Origin: Myxococcus guangdongensis
GTDB taxonomy: Bacteria; Myxococcota; Myxococcia; Myxococcales; Myxococcaceae
Assembly: GCF_024198255.1 (NCBI RefSeq)
Contig: NZ_JAJVKW010000003.1
Location: 682,001-746,000, forward strand
Reading direction: 5' to 3'
Length of the DNA stretch: 64,000 nucleotides
Below, one piece after another: positions 1,328-32,920 of the stretch (position 1 is its first letter; each line of letters begins with the position of its first letter). The notes under the pieces are model-generated. The model saw only the letters and a list, made by a program, of their open reading frames with translations, made no database searches and was not told the origin of the DNA. A program made the position numbers and the translations under genes.

Positions 1328-4300
1328 TTGTCCATACGTTTGGGTCTCGCCCGCGGGGTGTGTCTCGCGGTCCTGCTCTGTGGCGCCGGAGCGTTCGCTC
1401 AGGGCGTCTCGGTCATCACCGGCACCATCACCAGCGCGGAGGACAAGAAGGCGCTGGGCGACGCGGTGGTGACGGCCACCTCGCCGAAGCTGCAGGGTGA
1501 GCGGGTGGTGGTCTCGGATGCGAGCGGCCTGTATCGCATCCCGCAGCTGCCGCCGGGCACGTACACGCTGCGCGTGGAGCGCGAGGGCTTCGAGCCCTTC
1601 GTGCGCCCGGACATCGTGCTGCGGTTGGACCGCACCATCCGGGTGAACATCCAGCTGTTGCCCTCGGCGTTCGGGGAGGAGATCTCCATCAGCGCGGCGC
1701 CCACGTTGGACGTGGGCTCGAGCACGCAGGGCATGAGCGTGGACGCGGACTTCCTGCGCAACGTGGCCGTCATCCGTCCGGGCAGCAAGGGCTCCGCGTC
1801 GCGCTCGTTCGAGTCGCTGGCGGAGCTGGCCCCGGGCGCGGTGGAGGACCGCTACGGCGTGAGCGTCAGCGGCAGCAGCTCCCCGGAGAGCCAGTACGTG
1901 GTGGATGGCCTGTCGGTGAACGACCCGGGCGTGGGCACGCTGGGCACGCCGCTGTCGGTGGAGTTCGTGCAAGAGGTCAACGTCATCACCGGTGGCTACA
2001 TGCCGGAGTACGGCCGCTCCACGGGCGGCGTGCTCAACGTCGTCACCAAGTCGGGCTCCAACGAGTTCCACGGCTCGGTGTTCGCGAACATGGCGCCGGG
2101 CTCGCTGCAGCGAAACGGCACCATCGTCCGGCAGGAGGGCAGCGTCATCTCCGCGCAGGGGCAGCCGTGGAACCAGGGGGACTTCGGCTTCGACCTGGGC
2201 GGTCCCATCCTCAAGGACAAGCTCTGGTTCTACGCGGGCGTGGCGCCGTCGTTCAATCGCATCCGCGTGGACCGGCAGCTGAGCCGGCTGGAGTTCTGCG
2301 AGGAGGGCGACACGCGGCCCGGGTGCACCGCGGCGGGCCAGCGCGTCCGGGATCCGGAGACGGGCTTCGGTCTGGTGACGCCCATCGAGGGCACGCGCAC
2401 CACGCGCTTCGCGGATGAGCGCTCGCTGCAGTACATGACCAAGCTGACGTACCTCTTCAACCCGGACCACAACCTGTCCGTGTCGGTGTTCGGCACGCCG
2501 CGCTCGTCGGGGGGGTCGGGCAAGTATGCCTTCAGCGACGACGGTGACCCGGAGGTGTGTCTGGGGCTGTCGTGCACCTCGTACGTGCAGGGGACCTACG
2601 ACTCCATCGCCACCCGGCGCAGCAACGGGGTGATGGACATCGTCGCCAAGCAATCGTCGTCCTTCTTCGACAAGAAGTTCCTGGTCGACGCGACGCTCGG
2701 CTGGCACCACCAGTCGGACAGCACGCTGCCATCGGATGGCTCGGGGCTGTTGTCGCCCACGGGGCTGGCCTCGGAGCCGAACATCGCCTGGCGCCGCACG
2801 AGCAACCCCGGCCCGCGCTCCATCACCTTCTTCGAGACGTTGCAGGACCCGTCCGTCTGTGGCGCGACGCCGGAGGAGCAGCAGCTCAAGTGTCCCGTCC
2901 GGGCGTACTCGACGGGCGGCCCTGGCACCATCAGCGAGCAGGAGCTGGACCGCTTCCAGGGCAAGGTGATGGGCACCTTCCTGTTGCAGGCGCTCGGCCA
3001 CCACATCATCAAGGCGGGCTTCGACGCGGAGCGGATGAGCTTCTACAACCACCGCGCGCGCACGGGCGGTGCCCCGTGGCAGGAGTGCGCCAACGGCCGC
3101 TGCTTCTTCACGCTCAACCAGTACGGTTATCTCGAGGGCCCGGACCAGCCGGTGTTCCTGGCGAGCAAGGAGGGCACGTCCACGTCGGTGACGATGGGCG
3201 GCTTCATCCAGGACAGCTGGTCCATCCTGGACAAGGTGACGCTCAACGCGGGCCTGCGCTACGACGTGCAGACCATCCGCGGGTTGGACGACAAGGTGGG
3301 CTTGCACCTGCCCAACCAGTGGTCGCCGCGCGTGGGGTTGGTCTACGACTTCACACAGCAGGGACGCTCGAAGCTGTTCGTCAACTTCGCGCGCTTCTTC
3401 GAGAACGTGCCGTTGGACCTGGCGGACCTGTCCTTCCCGCAGCAGCAGCTGTTGTCGGCCACGTACAACTATCCGGCGTGTGACCCGAGCGACCGAGACT
3501 CGCTGCGCACCGGCTGCGTGGCGGTGGGCAACCGTCAGGCCATCGGCAGCCGGGAGGGGCCGAACCAGCGCTGGGACGCGCAGGGTGGAGACCGCGTGCC
3601 GGTGGACCCGAACATCCGCGCCCAGTCCGCGGACGAGCTCATGGTGGGTGGTGAGTACGAGGTGCTGCTCGGCCGCTTCGGCCTGACGTACACGCGGCGC
3701 GTGCTCAACGACGTCATCGAGGACATGAGCCGCGATGACGGCAACACCTTCTTCCTGGGCAACCCGGGCAAGGGGTTCTCGACGGACTTCCCCGAGGCGA
3801 AGCGCCACTACGACGCGGTGAACGTGTACTACCAGAAGGCGTTCTCCGACGGCTGGCTGGCCCAGGCGAGCTACACGTGGTCCAAGCTGCGCGGCAATTA
3901 CTCGGGGCTGTTCCGCGCGGACACCGGCCAGCTGTCGCCCAACCTCACGCGCGACTTCGACCTGGTGTCGCTGACCACCAACCGCGACGGCGCGCTGCCC
4001 GGGGACCGCACGCACGCGCTCAAGGTGTTCGGCGCGCGCGAGTTCAACCTGACGCGCTCGACGAGCCTGAACGTGGGCGGTGGGTATCGCAGCCGCTCGG
4101 GGACGCCGCTCAACTACCTGGGTGCGCATCCGCGGCGCAGCGGCTCGGAGACGTTCATCCTGCCGCGAGGCAGCGCGGGCCGGCTGCCGTGGGTGCACAA
4201 CATCGACACCCGCGTGAGCGTGAACCAGAAGCTGAGTGGGGACTACGTGCTGAGCATGTCGCTGGACGTGTTCAACGTCTTCAACTTCCAGCAATACACG

Positions 4301-7088: not shown

Positions 7089-7355
7089 CCCCATCCCCTT
7101 CCGCACGAGACCGTCCCCAAGGTGCGCACGATGGCGCCCTGGGGAAGCGGGGCGAGGTAGGAGTCGCGCCCTGGTGTGCGAAGAGTCGGAGGGGCGTCCT
7201 CCCGAGGCCAACCAGCGGTTGCGTTCACCCTGTCGAGCCAGCATCCCGAACTGTCGAGTCGCGGGAGGGGAGGCGCCTCCCGCCGGATGTCCGCGATAAC
7301 GGTCGGGACGAAGGACTCCGTGGTGGATGAACGGTCCTCGGAGTCCTCCGCTACT

Positions 7356-8549
7356 TCAGGGAGGCGCGGGCGTCTTGAACTCGGGGATGAGCTCACCGGT
7401 GAGGCGGATGCTCTTGAGCACGGCCTCGTGGGAGAGGGCGCCCACCTGGTGGAAGGACATCAGCGCGTCGATGCCCAGGGCCTCGTAGCGCTTGAGGCCC
7501 TGACGCACCTGGTCCTTCGTCCCGACGATGAGCGAGTCCTGGGCGCTCAGCACCTCCCACACCTGCTCATCCGGCACGGCCTCGCCGGACATGATGCGGC
7601 CGAGGATGCGCTGGGCCTGGGACTGGGGTGCGTTGGGGTCCTTGCGGCGCAGGTACTGGCCGGTGAGCCCGCCGCCAGCGGGGTCCTTGGCGAGGGCCTC
7701 CAGCTCCGCGGCGGATCTGACGAAGTGGTCCTTGGCCTCGAAGAAGGTGAACGAGCCGCTCGTGTACCAGGCCGCCGCCTTCGCCGCGCCGTTCTGCATC
7801 GCCTCGCGTTCGGTGTCCGCGCAGTGCACGAAGGTGAAGAAGGCCACCTGGTCGTTGACGAAGTCGCCCACCGGCTCACAGCGGGTCCGGAGGGCCTCGC
7901 GGTAGAGGTGGATCATTTCCGCCACCTCTTCGGGTGAGGCCCACAGCGTCACGCCGAGCGCGCCCACGCCGTTGCGTCCGGCCTGCTCGAAGGACGCGGG
8001 GCTGGAGCACGCCTGCCACAGGGGCGGGTGGGGTTTGCGGAAGGGCTTGGGGATGACGTTGATGTCCTTGACGCGGAAGTCCGGTGAGTCCCAGGAGAAC
8101 TTCTCCTGGGTCCACAGCTTCGGAATCATCTGGAAGGCCTGCTGCATCTGCGAGCGGGTGGCGTCGGGTTCGATGTTGAAGACGCGCCATTCGGGGATGG
8201 TGCTGCGCGCCATGCCGAGCTGGAAGCGGCCGCCGCTCAGGTGGTCGAGGAACGCGGAGCGCTCGGCGATGCGGATGGGGTGGTTGAAGCGTGCGGGCGC
8301 GAGCGCCGCCGAGTGCCCCACGTGGATGTTCTTGGTGCCCATCGCGATGGCGGTGAGCATGACCTCGGGTGCGGAGCTGTAGCTGAACTCCACCGCGGTG
8401 TGGTGCTCCACCTGCCACCAGACGCCATAGCCCATCTCATCCGCGAGCCGAGCCTGCTCCAGCGTCTCACGGATGATTTGATGCTCGTGGTCCGCGCCAG
8501 TCCACCGTTCCTTCGGGTGCTGCATCTCCGAGAAGATGTCGAGTCTCAT
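7356..8549 (-). CDS. LLM-class flavin-dependent oxidoreductase
   Basis: A 397-residue protein with the bacterial luciferase-like TIM barrel: LDIFSEMQHP at the N-terminus, WWQVEHHTAVEFSYSSAPEV, GHSAALAPARFNHPIRIAER, LSGGRFQLGMARST and a C-terminal TKDQVRQGLKRYEALGIDAL. Members use reduced flavin and oxygen to oxidise small organics. The substrate is not predictable. I start at the ATG at 8549 because the protein begins there with the first strand of the barrel and a G-rich ribosome-binding site precedes it. An upstream in-frame extension to 8663 only reads through the dispersed repeat. Confidence 0.9.
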   Translation of the reverse strand: MRLDIFSEMQHPKERWTGADHEHQIIRETLEQARLADEMGYGVWWQVEHHTAVEFSYSSAPEVMLTAIAMGTKNIHVGHSAALAPARFNHPIRIAERSAFLDHLSGGRFQLGMARSTIPEWRVFNIEPDATRSQMQQAFQMIPKLWTQEKFSWDSPDFRVKDINVIPKPFRKPHPPLWQACSSPASFEQAGRNGVGALGVTLWASPEEVAEMIHLYREALRTRCEPVGDFVNDQVAFFTFVHCADTEREAMQNGAAKAAAWYTSGSFTFFEAKDHFVRSAAELEALAKDPAGGGLTGQYLRRKDPNAPQSQAQRILGRIMSGEAVPDEQVWEVLSAQDSLIVGTKDQVRQGLKRYEALGIDALMSFHQVGALSHEAVLKSIRLTGELIPEFKTPAPP

Positions 8550-29611: not shown

Positions 29612-30439
29612 TCAAGATGCGTCGGGGGCCTTGGCCTGGGCTTGAACGAACTGGCTGCGACGTTGGAGGAAGGAGGGCGTGGTGCCGAACATGCGCCGGA
29701 AGGTGCGCGTCAGGTGGGCGGAGTCGGAGAAGCCGGCGGCGTGCGCGGCCTCCCCGGCGGTGCGCCCGGAGGCGATGGCGCCGGCGGCGCGTTGGAGTCG
29801 GAGCCAGAGGAGATAGGGGCGCAGGGGCACGCCGGTGGACTCGGTGAAGGCGTGCATCAGGCGGCCGGAGGAGAGCCCGGCGACCTCGGCGAGGGCTTCG
29901 AGGGAGGTGTCCTCGGGAGCGGGGTCGGAGCGCAGGTGGCGCAGGAGTTTGCGCACGCGCGGGTGCATGCGAGGTGCGTTGGTGGTGCTGGGGCCGGCGA
30001 GGGCTTCCAGCGTGGACTCCATCCACGGGCCGATGTCCGCGTGGGGGATGGGGCCCTCGCGCGGCAGACTGGAGAGCAGGGCGTCGCGCGCGGCCTCGTC
30101 GAAGAGGCGGACGGATTCGGTGAGCGAGGCGCGCAGGCGCAGGCCGTCGTGGCTCTCGGGTTCGACGAAGAGGAGGATGACCTCCGCGCCTCGGGCATCG
30201 AGCGCGTGCGGGACATCGGGACCGACGAGGACTCCGGCCGCGCGCGCGTCCTTCTTGGCCGAGTCCACGCGAATGGAGAGCGTGCCCGTGCGGCACAGCA
30301 TGAGGTGCATCGCGTGGTGGGCATGCTTCGACGACATGTCCCCAGGGCCCCACATGGCGAGCGCGGCCGGCCACACCACCAAGGGCATGTCCGGCCACGG
30401 AGCGCGAGGAGCGAGGTCAGGGGGTCGGGCGAGCAGCAT
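29612..30439 (-). CDS. AraC-family transcriptional regulator
   Basis: A 275-residue protein. The N-terminal part is cupin-like (HHAMHLMLCRTGTLSIRVDS, GVLVGPDVPHALDARGAEVILLFVEP). The C-terminal double helix-turn-helix runs from about 175 to 262 (LEALAEVAGLSSGRLMHAF, AGEAAHAAGFSDSAHLTRTFRRMFGTTPS). It likely controls the DoxX and AKR genes 50 bp downstream. The start lies 10 bp inside one of the 18-bp direct repeats, so the upstream cassette at 30.4-32.9 kb has replaced or moved its original promoter region. Confidence 0.88.
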   Translation of the reverse strand: MLLARPPDLAPRAPWPDMPLVVWPAALAMWGPGDMSSKHAHHAMHLMLCRTGTLSIRVDSAKKDARAAGVLVGPDVPHALDARGAEVILLFVEPESHDGLRLRASLTESVRLFDEAARDALLSSLPREGPIPHADIGPWMESTLEALAGPSTTNAPRMHPRVRKLLRHLRSDPAPEDTSLEALAEVAGLSSGRLMHAFTESTGVPLRPYLLWLRLQRAAGAIASGRTAGEAAHAAGFSDSAHLTRTFRRMFGTTPSFLQRRSQFVQAQAKAPDAS

Positions 30440-30448
30440 CCGCCCGCA

Positions 30449-30466
30449 GGTTACCAGCGGTCCCTG
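30449..30466. repeat. 18-bp direct repeat, AraC side (candidate attachment site)
   Basis: GGTTACCAGCGGTCCCTG is identical to 32903-32920, where it forms the last codons and stop of the GH13 gene. Here it lies 12 bp past the Sel1 gene stop and 10 bp before the AraC start. On the minus strand both read ..RDRW-stop. The two copies bracket the Rhs/Sel1/IS segment. Confidence 0.8.
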
Positions 30467-30478
30467 AGCGATGTGTGC

Positions 30479-31330
30479 TCAGAGGGGTTCGCCAAGCTGG
30501 CGAAGTCGCTCGGCTGCCTTAGAATGGCCCGCACTTGCGGCGCTCCTGAAATGCTGAACAGCTCTCGTCTTGGACTTGGGGACCCCCAGACCTTCTGAAT
30601 AGATCTGTCCCAGGCTGAAGAACGCACTGGTGCTGCCTTGCTTTGCTGCCCGCTGATACCACCGAATCGCCCCCAAGTAGTCCGGAGAGCCTCGCGCCCC
30701 ATTGAGCAATAGCCAGCCCAATGTACATTGAGCGTTAACATCCTCAAGGTTCGCCGCTTTCTCATACAGCCGAATCGCTCGCTCCAGGCTCTGCTTGACG
30801 CCTTTGCCTTGCTCGTAGGCAGTCGCGAGGCTGTAGATGGCCGCAGCGCTACCTCGCCGAGCACTTGCGCGGTAGAGGATTACCGCCTCGGCCCATTGGC
30901 TTGGAATGGGACTCGCAAAGAGAAGATTTGCCAGATTTGACTGAGCTTCCGAGAGTCCAATAGCAACGGCCCTCCTGTACCAGTTCTCCGCAAGCCTCCT
31001 ATTCTTCCGGATCTGCGTCCCCTGTTCATAGAACAGACCGAGATTGAATGCTGCAACTGAGTCACCTTGGGCGACGGCTTTTTTGAGCCACCGTAGCGCT
31101 TGCCCGGCATCCCGTTGGACTCCATCTCCGTACATGAGATGGAGTCCGACGTTTGTCATTGCCTCAATTCTTCCGGCGCGTGCAGCTACAAGGTACGCAT
31201 GGAAAAGAGCTCTGCGAGGCATGTCGGGTACGTCTTCGAGATCCCAAGCTCTTTCCATTGCGGCGATATCCAAGGGTTCGATTGAATCCTTCGGGGAGTG
31301 GCCCGCTGCTACTTTTTTCCGTCGCACCAT
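30479..31330 (-). CDS. Sel1-repeat protein, candidate immunity to the Rhs toxin
   Basis: A 283-residue soluble protein of about seven Sel1/TPR-like repeats of 36 residues: AMTNVGLHLMYGDGVQRDAG, AAFNLGLFYEQGTQIRKNRR, AIYSLATAYEQGKGVKQSLE, AQCTLGWLLLNGARGSPD and AFFSLGQIYSEGLGVPKSKT. The base composition is clearly more AT-rich than its neighbours, a sign of foreign origin. Its ATG (31330) overlaps the end of the Rhs-toxin reading frame (stop at 31309) by 22 bp, typical of a toxin-immunity pair. Sel1 proteins have been seen next to Rhs toxins, but neutralisation by this one is inference. Confidence 0.8.
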   Translation of the reverse strand: MVRRKKVAAGHSPKDSIEPLDIAAMERAWDLEDVPDMPRRALFHAYLVAARAGRIEAMTNVGLHLMYGDGVQRDAGQALRWLKKAVAQGDSVAAFNLGLFYEQGTQIRKNRRLAENWYRRAVAIGLSEAQSNLANLLFASPIPSQWAEAVILYRASARRGSAAAIYSLATAYEQGKGVKQSLERAIRLYEKAANLEDVNAQCTLGWLLLNGARGSPDYLGAIRWYQRAAKQGSTSAFFSLGQIYSEGLGVPKSKTRAVQHFRSAASAGHSKAAERLRQLGEPL

Positions 31331-31980
31331 TCGTTGAATCCGGGAGGCTTGGGTTTGATTGTCTTCTTGCCGGATTGGGGCGCCCGTATTCGAGTTTGCC
31401 TGGTTAGTCCGGTGTTGGGTGTGTTTGTTTTAAGGGGTTGTTTGTTTGGTGCGAGTTGCCAGAGAAGCCGCGTTCTCCTTTTCCCATGGGGCAAGCGCCC
31501 GGAGGTACAGGCGGATTTTGCGAAATATCATCGGCTGGCGGATCCCAGGGCATTGGAATCCAGGGGCAGGCTCCTGGGTGTGTAGCGCAATATCCAACGG
31601 CTGCGCCGACTGCCGCCCCAATGGGACCGCCAACCGCTGCGCCAGCAATTGCCACTGCAACCGGGTTTTCTTCCATTGGGTCATTGTAGGTGAGAGGGTT
31701 ATTGGATGCGTATGCATACAACGGCAGTCCCTGCCCCAGTAGCGCGTACACCTGAATTGCTTCAGGGTCTTGCGATAACGGCTCCGGCTGGAGGAACCTC
31801 CCTGGCTTAGGATTGTAGTATCGCGCGCGGAAATAGTAGAGCCCAGTGCCATCGTCCTCTCGCCCTGCGAATGTCTGTGCGCTGGTTCCGGCAGTCCCGG
31901 TGTAGGCTGCTTCTCCATAGGGTTCGTAGGTGTACTCTGTTGCAAGCGTACCCAGTGCATCGGTGAGGGCGATTGTTGAG
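31309..31980 (-). pseudogene. 3' fragment of an Rhs polymorphic toxin gene, frameshifted near its end
   Basis: Reading from the IS boundary: STIALTDALGTLATEYTYEP, GREDDGTGLYYFRARYYNPK, PGRFLQPEPL and YAYASNNPLTYNDP, the closing part of the Rhs core. Then comes a Gly/Ala membrane-like stretch (VAVAIAGAAVGGPIGAAVGA) and a toxin tail (GKGERGFSGNSHQTNNPLK). This frame stops at 31404. The neighbouring frame continues with GKKTIKPKPPGFNEWCDGKK and stops at 31309, and this fits better as the native end, so a frameshift near 31390-31430 is likely. The 5' part of the gene, thousands of bases in intact Rhs genes, is absent: the sequence goes straight into the IS. Not functional as it stands. Confidence 0.8.
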
Positions 31981-32848
31981 CTAACAGCCCCTAACAAATG
32001 TCAGAGCTGAGGCGGCGCAGCCGCATGATGCAGCAGCCGAGGACGAGGAATCCGAAGTGGACGTCGTCCCTGCGTTCGTCGCGGACTCGAAGTCGGCGGA
32101 GCTGGTTCTTCCAGGCCAGGGAGCGGTAGCGCCCCAGTCGCTCCTTGGATTCAACGCCCGGACGCGCAATGCGAGGAGTGATGCCGCGCAGGCGCAGACC
32201 ACGTCGGTTTCTCCTCGATGCGTAGGCCTTCTGACCATGCAGTTTCCCAGGACGGAGCCGGCGCTGGCCCGACGGCGTCCTCACCGCGGGCACGGAGTCG
32301 AGGAGCGGGAAAGTTCGTGGGTGTCGTGCACATTGGCTGCAGTCACGGATTCAGTGAGCGGCAGGCCGTGGGCGTCTACGAGAAGATGATGCTTGCTACC
32401 CGCCTTCTCTCTTTCCGTCGGGTTTGGGCCTGTGAGGGCCCCCTTTTTGACGCCCGGACGGACGAGGAGTCGATGGAGGCCCGGGAGAAGTCGACCTTGC
32501 CGCGCAACCCCAGTTCGTCGAGCAACCGCTCCTGGAGGCGCTCCCACACCCCAGCCCGGATCCATTCCTCAAGCCGGCGCCAGGCCGTCATGCCCGATAG
32601 GGCGAACTGCTTGCGGGGCAGCATCTCCCAGGGGATTCCACTGCGGAGCACGAAGACGCTGGCTTCCCGCGCCGCTCTGTCGTCCGCTCGAGGACGCCCC
32701 AGCTTCTTCTTGGGGCGAGGCGGAGGCAGCAAGGGAGCCACTCGCTGCCAGAAGGCGTCAGGGACGAGTTCGCGGACCATGCCCTTCAGCCTGGAGATGG
32801 GTCTTCCCTGCGACCAACCTATCCCCGACTTTCGTTAGGCGCTGTAAG
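31981..32848 (-). mobile_element. Degenerate IS5-family (IS427-like) insertion sequence
   Basis: 868 bp, the usual size of IS427-group elements. The ends are imperfect inverted repeats: CTAACAGCCCCTAACAAATG at 31981 pairs with the complement of the right end at 32848 (CTTACAGCGCCTAACGAAAG). Identity is high over about 23 bp. It interrupts the Rhs gene on its left side (the Rhs frame enters the IS at SSTIALTD). On its right there are only 54 bp before the GH13-side direct repeat. I cannot identify a clear target duplication. Confidence 0.75.
31991..32780 (-). pseudogene. IS427-like transposase, broken
   Basis: The first frame (32780 to 32376) gives VRELVPDAFWQRVAPLLPPP, SGIPWEMLPRKQFALSGMTA and DFSRASIDSSSVRASKRG, the IS5 N-terminal domain and first catalytic Asp. 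At the A5G5 run (32439-32448 on the plus strand) a -1 shift gives KKGALTGPNPTEREKAGSKH, HLLVDAHGLPLTESVTAANV; such shifts are programmed in this group. A further shift near 32307-32313, best explained by loss of one T, breaks the frame again. It continues as AVRTPSGQRRLRPGKLHGQK. Around 32115-32130 the block that should hold the catalytic Glu (..WVVERT..) is missing: the sequence reads RLGRYRSLAWKNQLRRL. The enzyme is dead. Confidence 0.8.
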
Positions 32849-32870
32849 TACTGGGTGACAGGCCCAGGGA

Positions 32871-32884
32871 GTGAGGCCCCTCAC
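32871..32884 (-). terminator. Short hairpin downstream of the GH13 gene
   Basis: GTGAGGCCCCTCAC is a perfect palindrome 21 bp past the GH13 stop codon. It is followed on that strand by the IS end. It may be the original terminator, but the stem is short. Confidence 0.4.
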
Positions 32885-32902
32885 TTTCTGCAAAAGCTCT
32901 CG

Positions 32903-32920
32903 GGTTACCAGCGGTCCCTG
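32903..32920. repeat. 18-bp direct repeat, GH13 side (candidate attachment site)
   Basis: Identical to 30449-30466. It covers the last five codons and stop codon of the GH13 gene (..RDRW-stop on the minus strand) plus two bases beyond. Integration at the 3' end of a gene with rebuilding of that end is the usual behaviour of site-specific elements. Confidence 0.8.

Follow-up and report, generated by a model that had tools for sequence, protein, structure and literature searches.

At the junction between an AraC-family regulator gene and the 3′ end of a GH13 gene, two sister genomes carry different toxin-immunity cassettes, each inserted between direct repeats of the GH13 gene end, while the same junction is empty in related genomes. 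The sequences suggest that these cassettes were pasted in with duplication of the target and not by an ordinary integrase. Our leading explanation, to which we give an even chance, is that the two cassettes were inserted at this site repeatedly and independently, with long target duplications of variable length (18 bp in one genome, 78 bp in the other), by way of break repair. The first cassette lies in the window, i.e., the whole stretch of 64,000 nucleotides analysed here, from the genome referred to as G000, where the features at the junction are as follows:

29612-30439, minus strand: AraC-family regulator, the other neighbour at the junction
30449-30466, no strand assigned: distal 18-bp copy, the displaced GH13 3′ end, adjoining AraC
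30479-31330, minus strand: intact Sel1-repeat protein of 283 residues, presumed immunity protein (Pfam Sel1, E-value 2.9e-43)
31310-31984, minus strand: 3′ remnant of an RHS gene, comprising the core end and toxin tail (TIGR03696, E-value 5.9e-16; intact counterpart in locus L065)
31985-32844, minus strand: IS5-family insertion of 860 bp with complete ends and a broken transposase (NF033580 and DUF4096)
32848-32902, no strand assigned: 55-bp cassette stub between the IS and the proximal repeat
32903-32920, no strand assigned: proximal 18-bp copy, including the GH13 stop codon
32905-34947, minus strand: GH13 gene (glucan branching/trehalohydrolase-like, 680 residues), the intact target, with its stop TTA at 32905-32907

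The direct repeat, GGTTACCAGCGGTCCCTG, was located at the two positions given by the initial annotation, 30449-30466 and 32903-32920, which are its two exact copies in the 11.2-Mb G000 genome; there was no third copy in the window at up to three mismatches, nor genome-wide in G000 at up to two. The right copy, correctly annotated as the end of the GH13 gene, consists of the final 16 bases of this gene and two spacer bases, with the stop codon falling within it, and identity between the copies breaks off sharply at either edge of the 18 bp. The enclosed segment is, as also stated in that annotation, more AT-rich than its surroundings, with a GC content of 0.60 (0.57 without the IS) vs. 0.70 in both flanks.

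Without its IS the G000 cassette is ~1.57 kb in length. The initial annotation had described it as a broken IS, the 3′ end of an Rhs gene and a Sel1-repeat gene on one strand, with the Sel1 stop 12 bp from the left 18-bp copy; this distance and the shared minus strand are correct, but the IS has complete ends and is only internally shortened compared to its relatives, and it is bordered on both sides by a target site duplication (TSD), TAA, at 31982-31984 and 32845-32847. The tail of the RHS remnant is disrupted by a premature stop and a frame change, such that it is readable in two frames, and the IS sits on its 5′ side; no similarity to RHS was seen in the 55-bp stub. G006, from the same genus but less closely related, has a longer RHS gene in which the corresponding tail is intact and which runs directly into a Sel1 gene, whose product is 58% identical to the Sel1 protein of G000, and the order of the G000 cassette (Rhs core end and tail, then the immunity gene) is the same as that beside this longer gene. 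Based on the broken tail and this intact counterpart, we regard the G000 segment as an orphan RHS toxin-immunity module in which the toxin is dead, while its putative immunity gene, the presumed role of Sel1 here, is intact. Orphan rhs-CT/immunity modules consist of a 5′-truncated Rhs core with a variable tail and an immunity-like gene downstream, an arrangement that the G000 cassette shares; it differs from these in its broken toxin frame, its inserted IS and the gene-end duplications that surround it.

The IS has two further copies in the G000 genome (94–95% identity), and is ~16 bp shorter than both, meaning that its transposase is probably dead. As it is internal to the cassette and has its own TSD, it is probably a guest that arrived after the cassette. 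For the same reasons we rejected IS-driven capture of the cassette, as well as an IS5 composite transposon, there being a single internal IS and no IS pair at the ends of the segment.

The sister genome G003, which is 95% identical to G000 at the GH13 gene, has at the same AraC-GH13 junction a cassette of ~1.5 kb that is unrelated to that of G000 and in the opposite orientation. Curated models identified its two products as the lipoprotein toxin SitA6 (TIGR02269, 5.4e-77, 258 bits against a cut-off of 86) and the immunity protein SitI6 (TIGR02264, 2.7e-84, 282 bits against a cut-off of 100), making it a SitAI cassette like those already described. It is flanked by 78-bp copies of the gene end with two mismatches, each corresponding to the final 69 bp of GH13 (counting the stop and the two spacer bases) and 9 bp of spacer. 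The same 18 bp are contained in the repeats of both genomes, although these are two cases only and their ends differ, at 0/+18 in G000 vs. -9/+69 in G003. In the parts of two papers covered here (PMC5562445, PMC10047993), sitAI cassettes of myxobacteria are located either on prophages or adjacent to mobile elements of other kinds, whereas that of G003 is isolated, with a copy of a host gene end on each side; we found no mention in these parts of gene-end duplications at sitAI.

In eight related genomes (G004, G007, G008, G013, G014, G016, G025 and G026) the gene end is single-copy and the AraC-GH13 junction is empty, the AraC gene starting ~8–14 bp past the end of GH13, from which it follows that the G000 segment was inserted and its target duplicated. 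The gene end is also single-copy in G010 and G012, but AraC has been lost from these. Relatives with one 18-bp copy at an empty junction, and other cargo between two copies, were what the initial annotation had proposed to look for; the former are the eight genomes above and the latter occurs in the closest genome, G003. It had further held that both copies in cassette-free strains, or copies scattered genome-wide, would speak against its interpretation; neither was seen for the 18-bp sequence, a partial exception to the first being G002 (locus L063, at about 7900–8070 in window orientation), where ~98 bp at the GH13 3′ end are duplicated in tandem, the copies having diverged and enclosing no cargo.

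As a measure of how unusual such repeats are, an alignment was made of ~790 kb from G000 with ~800 kb from G003, in which about 780 kb were compared, and all 83 insertion sides of 300 bp or more between the two genomes were scored for direct repeats at their ends. The G003 cassette had the highest score (72) and the G000 cassette the third highest (18), the second being that of a 405-bp event (20) and all others 16 or less. Random positions reached a junction score of 12 at the 95th percentile and 15 at the 99th; the random set includes a few high values that stem from repeated genes, and a junction score should therefore not be read by itself as a p-value. Among insertions of more than 1 kb, only the G000 and G003 cassettes had an above-chance junction repeat in the ~780 kb. 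Differing inserts at one site are common between G000 and G003 in the compared region, and because of this the occupancy of one site by both cassettes is on its own weak evidence. The 405-bp insertion, the only other high scorer, is in contig C4 of G003 at about 505425–505200 and has a near-perfect 23-bp junction repeat.

Whether the two insertions represent one event or two was considered from the divergence between G000 and G003, which is 16% at fourfold sites in GH13. Had the 78-bp duplication preceded the split of these genomes, its distal non-coding copy would be expected to have gained ~6 neutral changes on the G003 branch, yet compared to the G000 gene end it shows a single one (P about 0.014). 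The duplication is thus more likely to postdate the split, which would make the insertions two independent ones, though homogenisation of the copies by gene conversion could also give an impression of youth. The alternative is a single ancestral duplication, either flanking a cassette or simply in tandem, after which one lineage exchanged its cargo and the repeat was trimmed to 18 bp in G000. This would require just one rare duplication, and it draws on the tandem duplication without cargo that G002 has in this region and on the frequency of cargo differences at sites shared by G000 and G003; nevertheless we consider it unlikely, as the G003 copies are too similar for such an age unless homogenised by gene conversion, and the G000 insert has no trace of SitA6.

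The initial annotation had instead favoured a small site-specific element, with the GH13 3′ end as attachment site. Extended to both cassettes, this means that they would be elements or remnants that lack an integrase and are mobilised in trans, with an element-borne copy rebuilding the gene end, and the shared 18 bp, the intact GH13 gene and the two different cargos at one site are all in keeping with this. However, neither the G000 cassette, as had been noted from the outset, nor that of G003 contains an integrase, one that may once have been present and later lost; serine recombinases were found in neither genome; and the two tyrosine recombinases of G003 are both shared with G000 and located on contigs other than that of the cassette. 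An integrase also leaves the cargo-free duplication of G002 unexplained. As no recombinase fits and the two repeats differ in length as well as in their ends, this is not the best reading of the junction, and we think it rather improbable. The gene end had no match in plasmids or phages that would place an attachment site there; a single IMG/VR contig with the 18 bp was dismissed as chance, its flanks being unrelated outside of these. That the 18-bp match itself arose by chance is scarcely credible: random positions in DNA this rich in GC often have repeats of 12–15 bp nearby, but only 0.06 matches are expected in the window even at three mismatches, both copies lie exactly at the insertion breakpoints, a 78-bp version is present at the sister locus, and the comparison with empty sites already contradicts it.

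Capture during break repair, our leading explanation, would begin with the GH13 3′ end being broken in a staggered manner, after which the ends would be filled in and joined around a fragment of foreign DNA. Such joining would generate a duplication of variable length while keeping GH13 intact. The step that forms the duplications is one we infer from the sequences; we count in its favour the ~98-bp cargo-free duplication in G002, and the end-joining protein Ku is present in G000, G003 and G002, i.e., in all three genomes with duplications. Once in place, the cassettes may persist through kin-discrimination killing or protection, of which only protection is plausible for the G000 cassette given its broken toxin.

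A precedent can be found in restriction-modification genes, which were reported from Helicobacter genome comparison to be inserted with long and variable target duplication (Nobusato et al. 2000, as described in PMC1643837 and PMC3031569). The features of that class recognized at the AraC-GH13 junction are a direct repeat of host sequence, an empty single-copy allele and a long and variable repeat length. The restriction-modification insertions resemble the present ones in being small gene pairs without their own transposase, between long host-sequence duplications of variable length, that were found by comparing close genomes; they differ in that the cargo here is of kin-discrimination toxin-immunity type (Rhs-tail/Sel1 and SitA6/SitI6), that two different cargos occur at one gene end, and that the G000 duplication is short for the class. 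We tentatively raise the wider possibility that the GH13 end is a recurrent landing site, at which cassettes of unrelated toxin-immunity families, lacking a recombinase of their own, become inserted with target duplications of variable length, allowing kin-discrimination genes to spread in the manner of the Helicobacter restriction-modification genes. Offering a pair of cassettes unrelated to each other, cleanly empty alleles and duplications that can be measured, this junction is a place where the mechanism of entry may be read from sequence, and it ties standalone kin-discrimination cassettes to a pattern of mobility so far reported for restriction-modification genes.

Gene-end repeats are not a general property of SitA6 cassettes, a rule that we rejected as only the G003 locus among the 41 of the genus conforms to it, a pair of kinase paralogues aside. 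The 40 other SitA6 loci had no flanking repeat attributable to insertion, which indicates that this is not the usual route by which these cassettes move. The exceptional pair is at locus L112 of G012, where SitA6 is bracketed by imperfect 223-bp direct repeats (3858–4080 and 7159–7381) of kinase-like coding sequence, which probably belong to paralogous genes.

The GH13 gene looks like part of a GH13-araC-doxX-akr operon that is interrupted by the G000 cassette. In G012 (L049) and G010 (L055) DoxX has been lost together with AraC, and GH13 adjoins the aldo/keto reductase gene. Three other loci, L057, L058 and L059 (G011, G020 and G019, respectively), which belong to one clade, have no toxin cassette but a single gene encoding a CxxCH motif (cytochrome c-like) between AraC and GH13, and in the clade of L060, L062 and L063 (G022, G009 and G002, respectively) this position is occupied by two genes, one sigma-factor-like and one small and membrane-protein-like.
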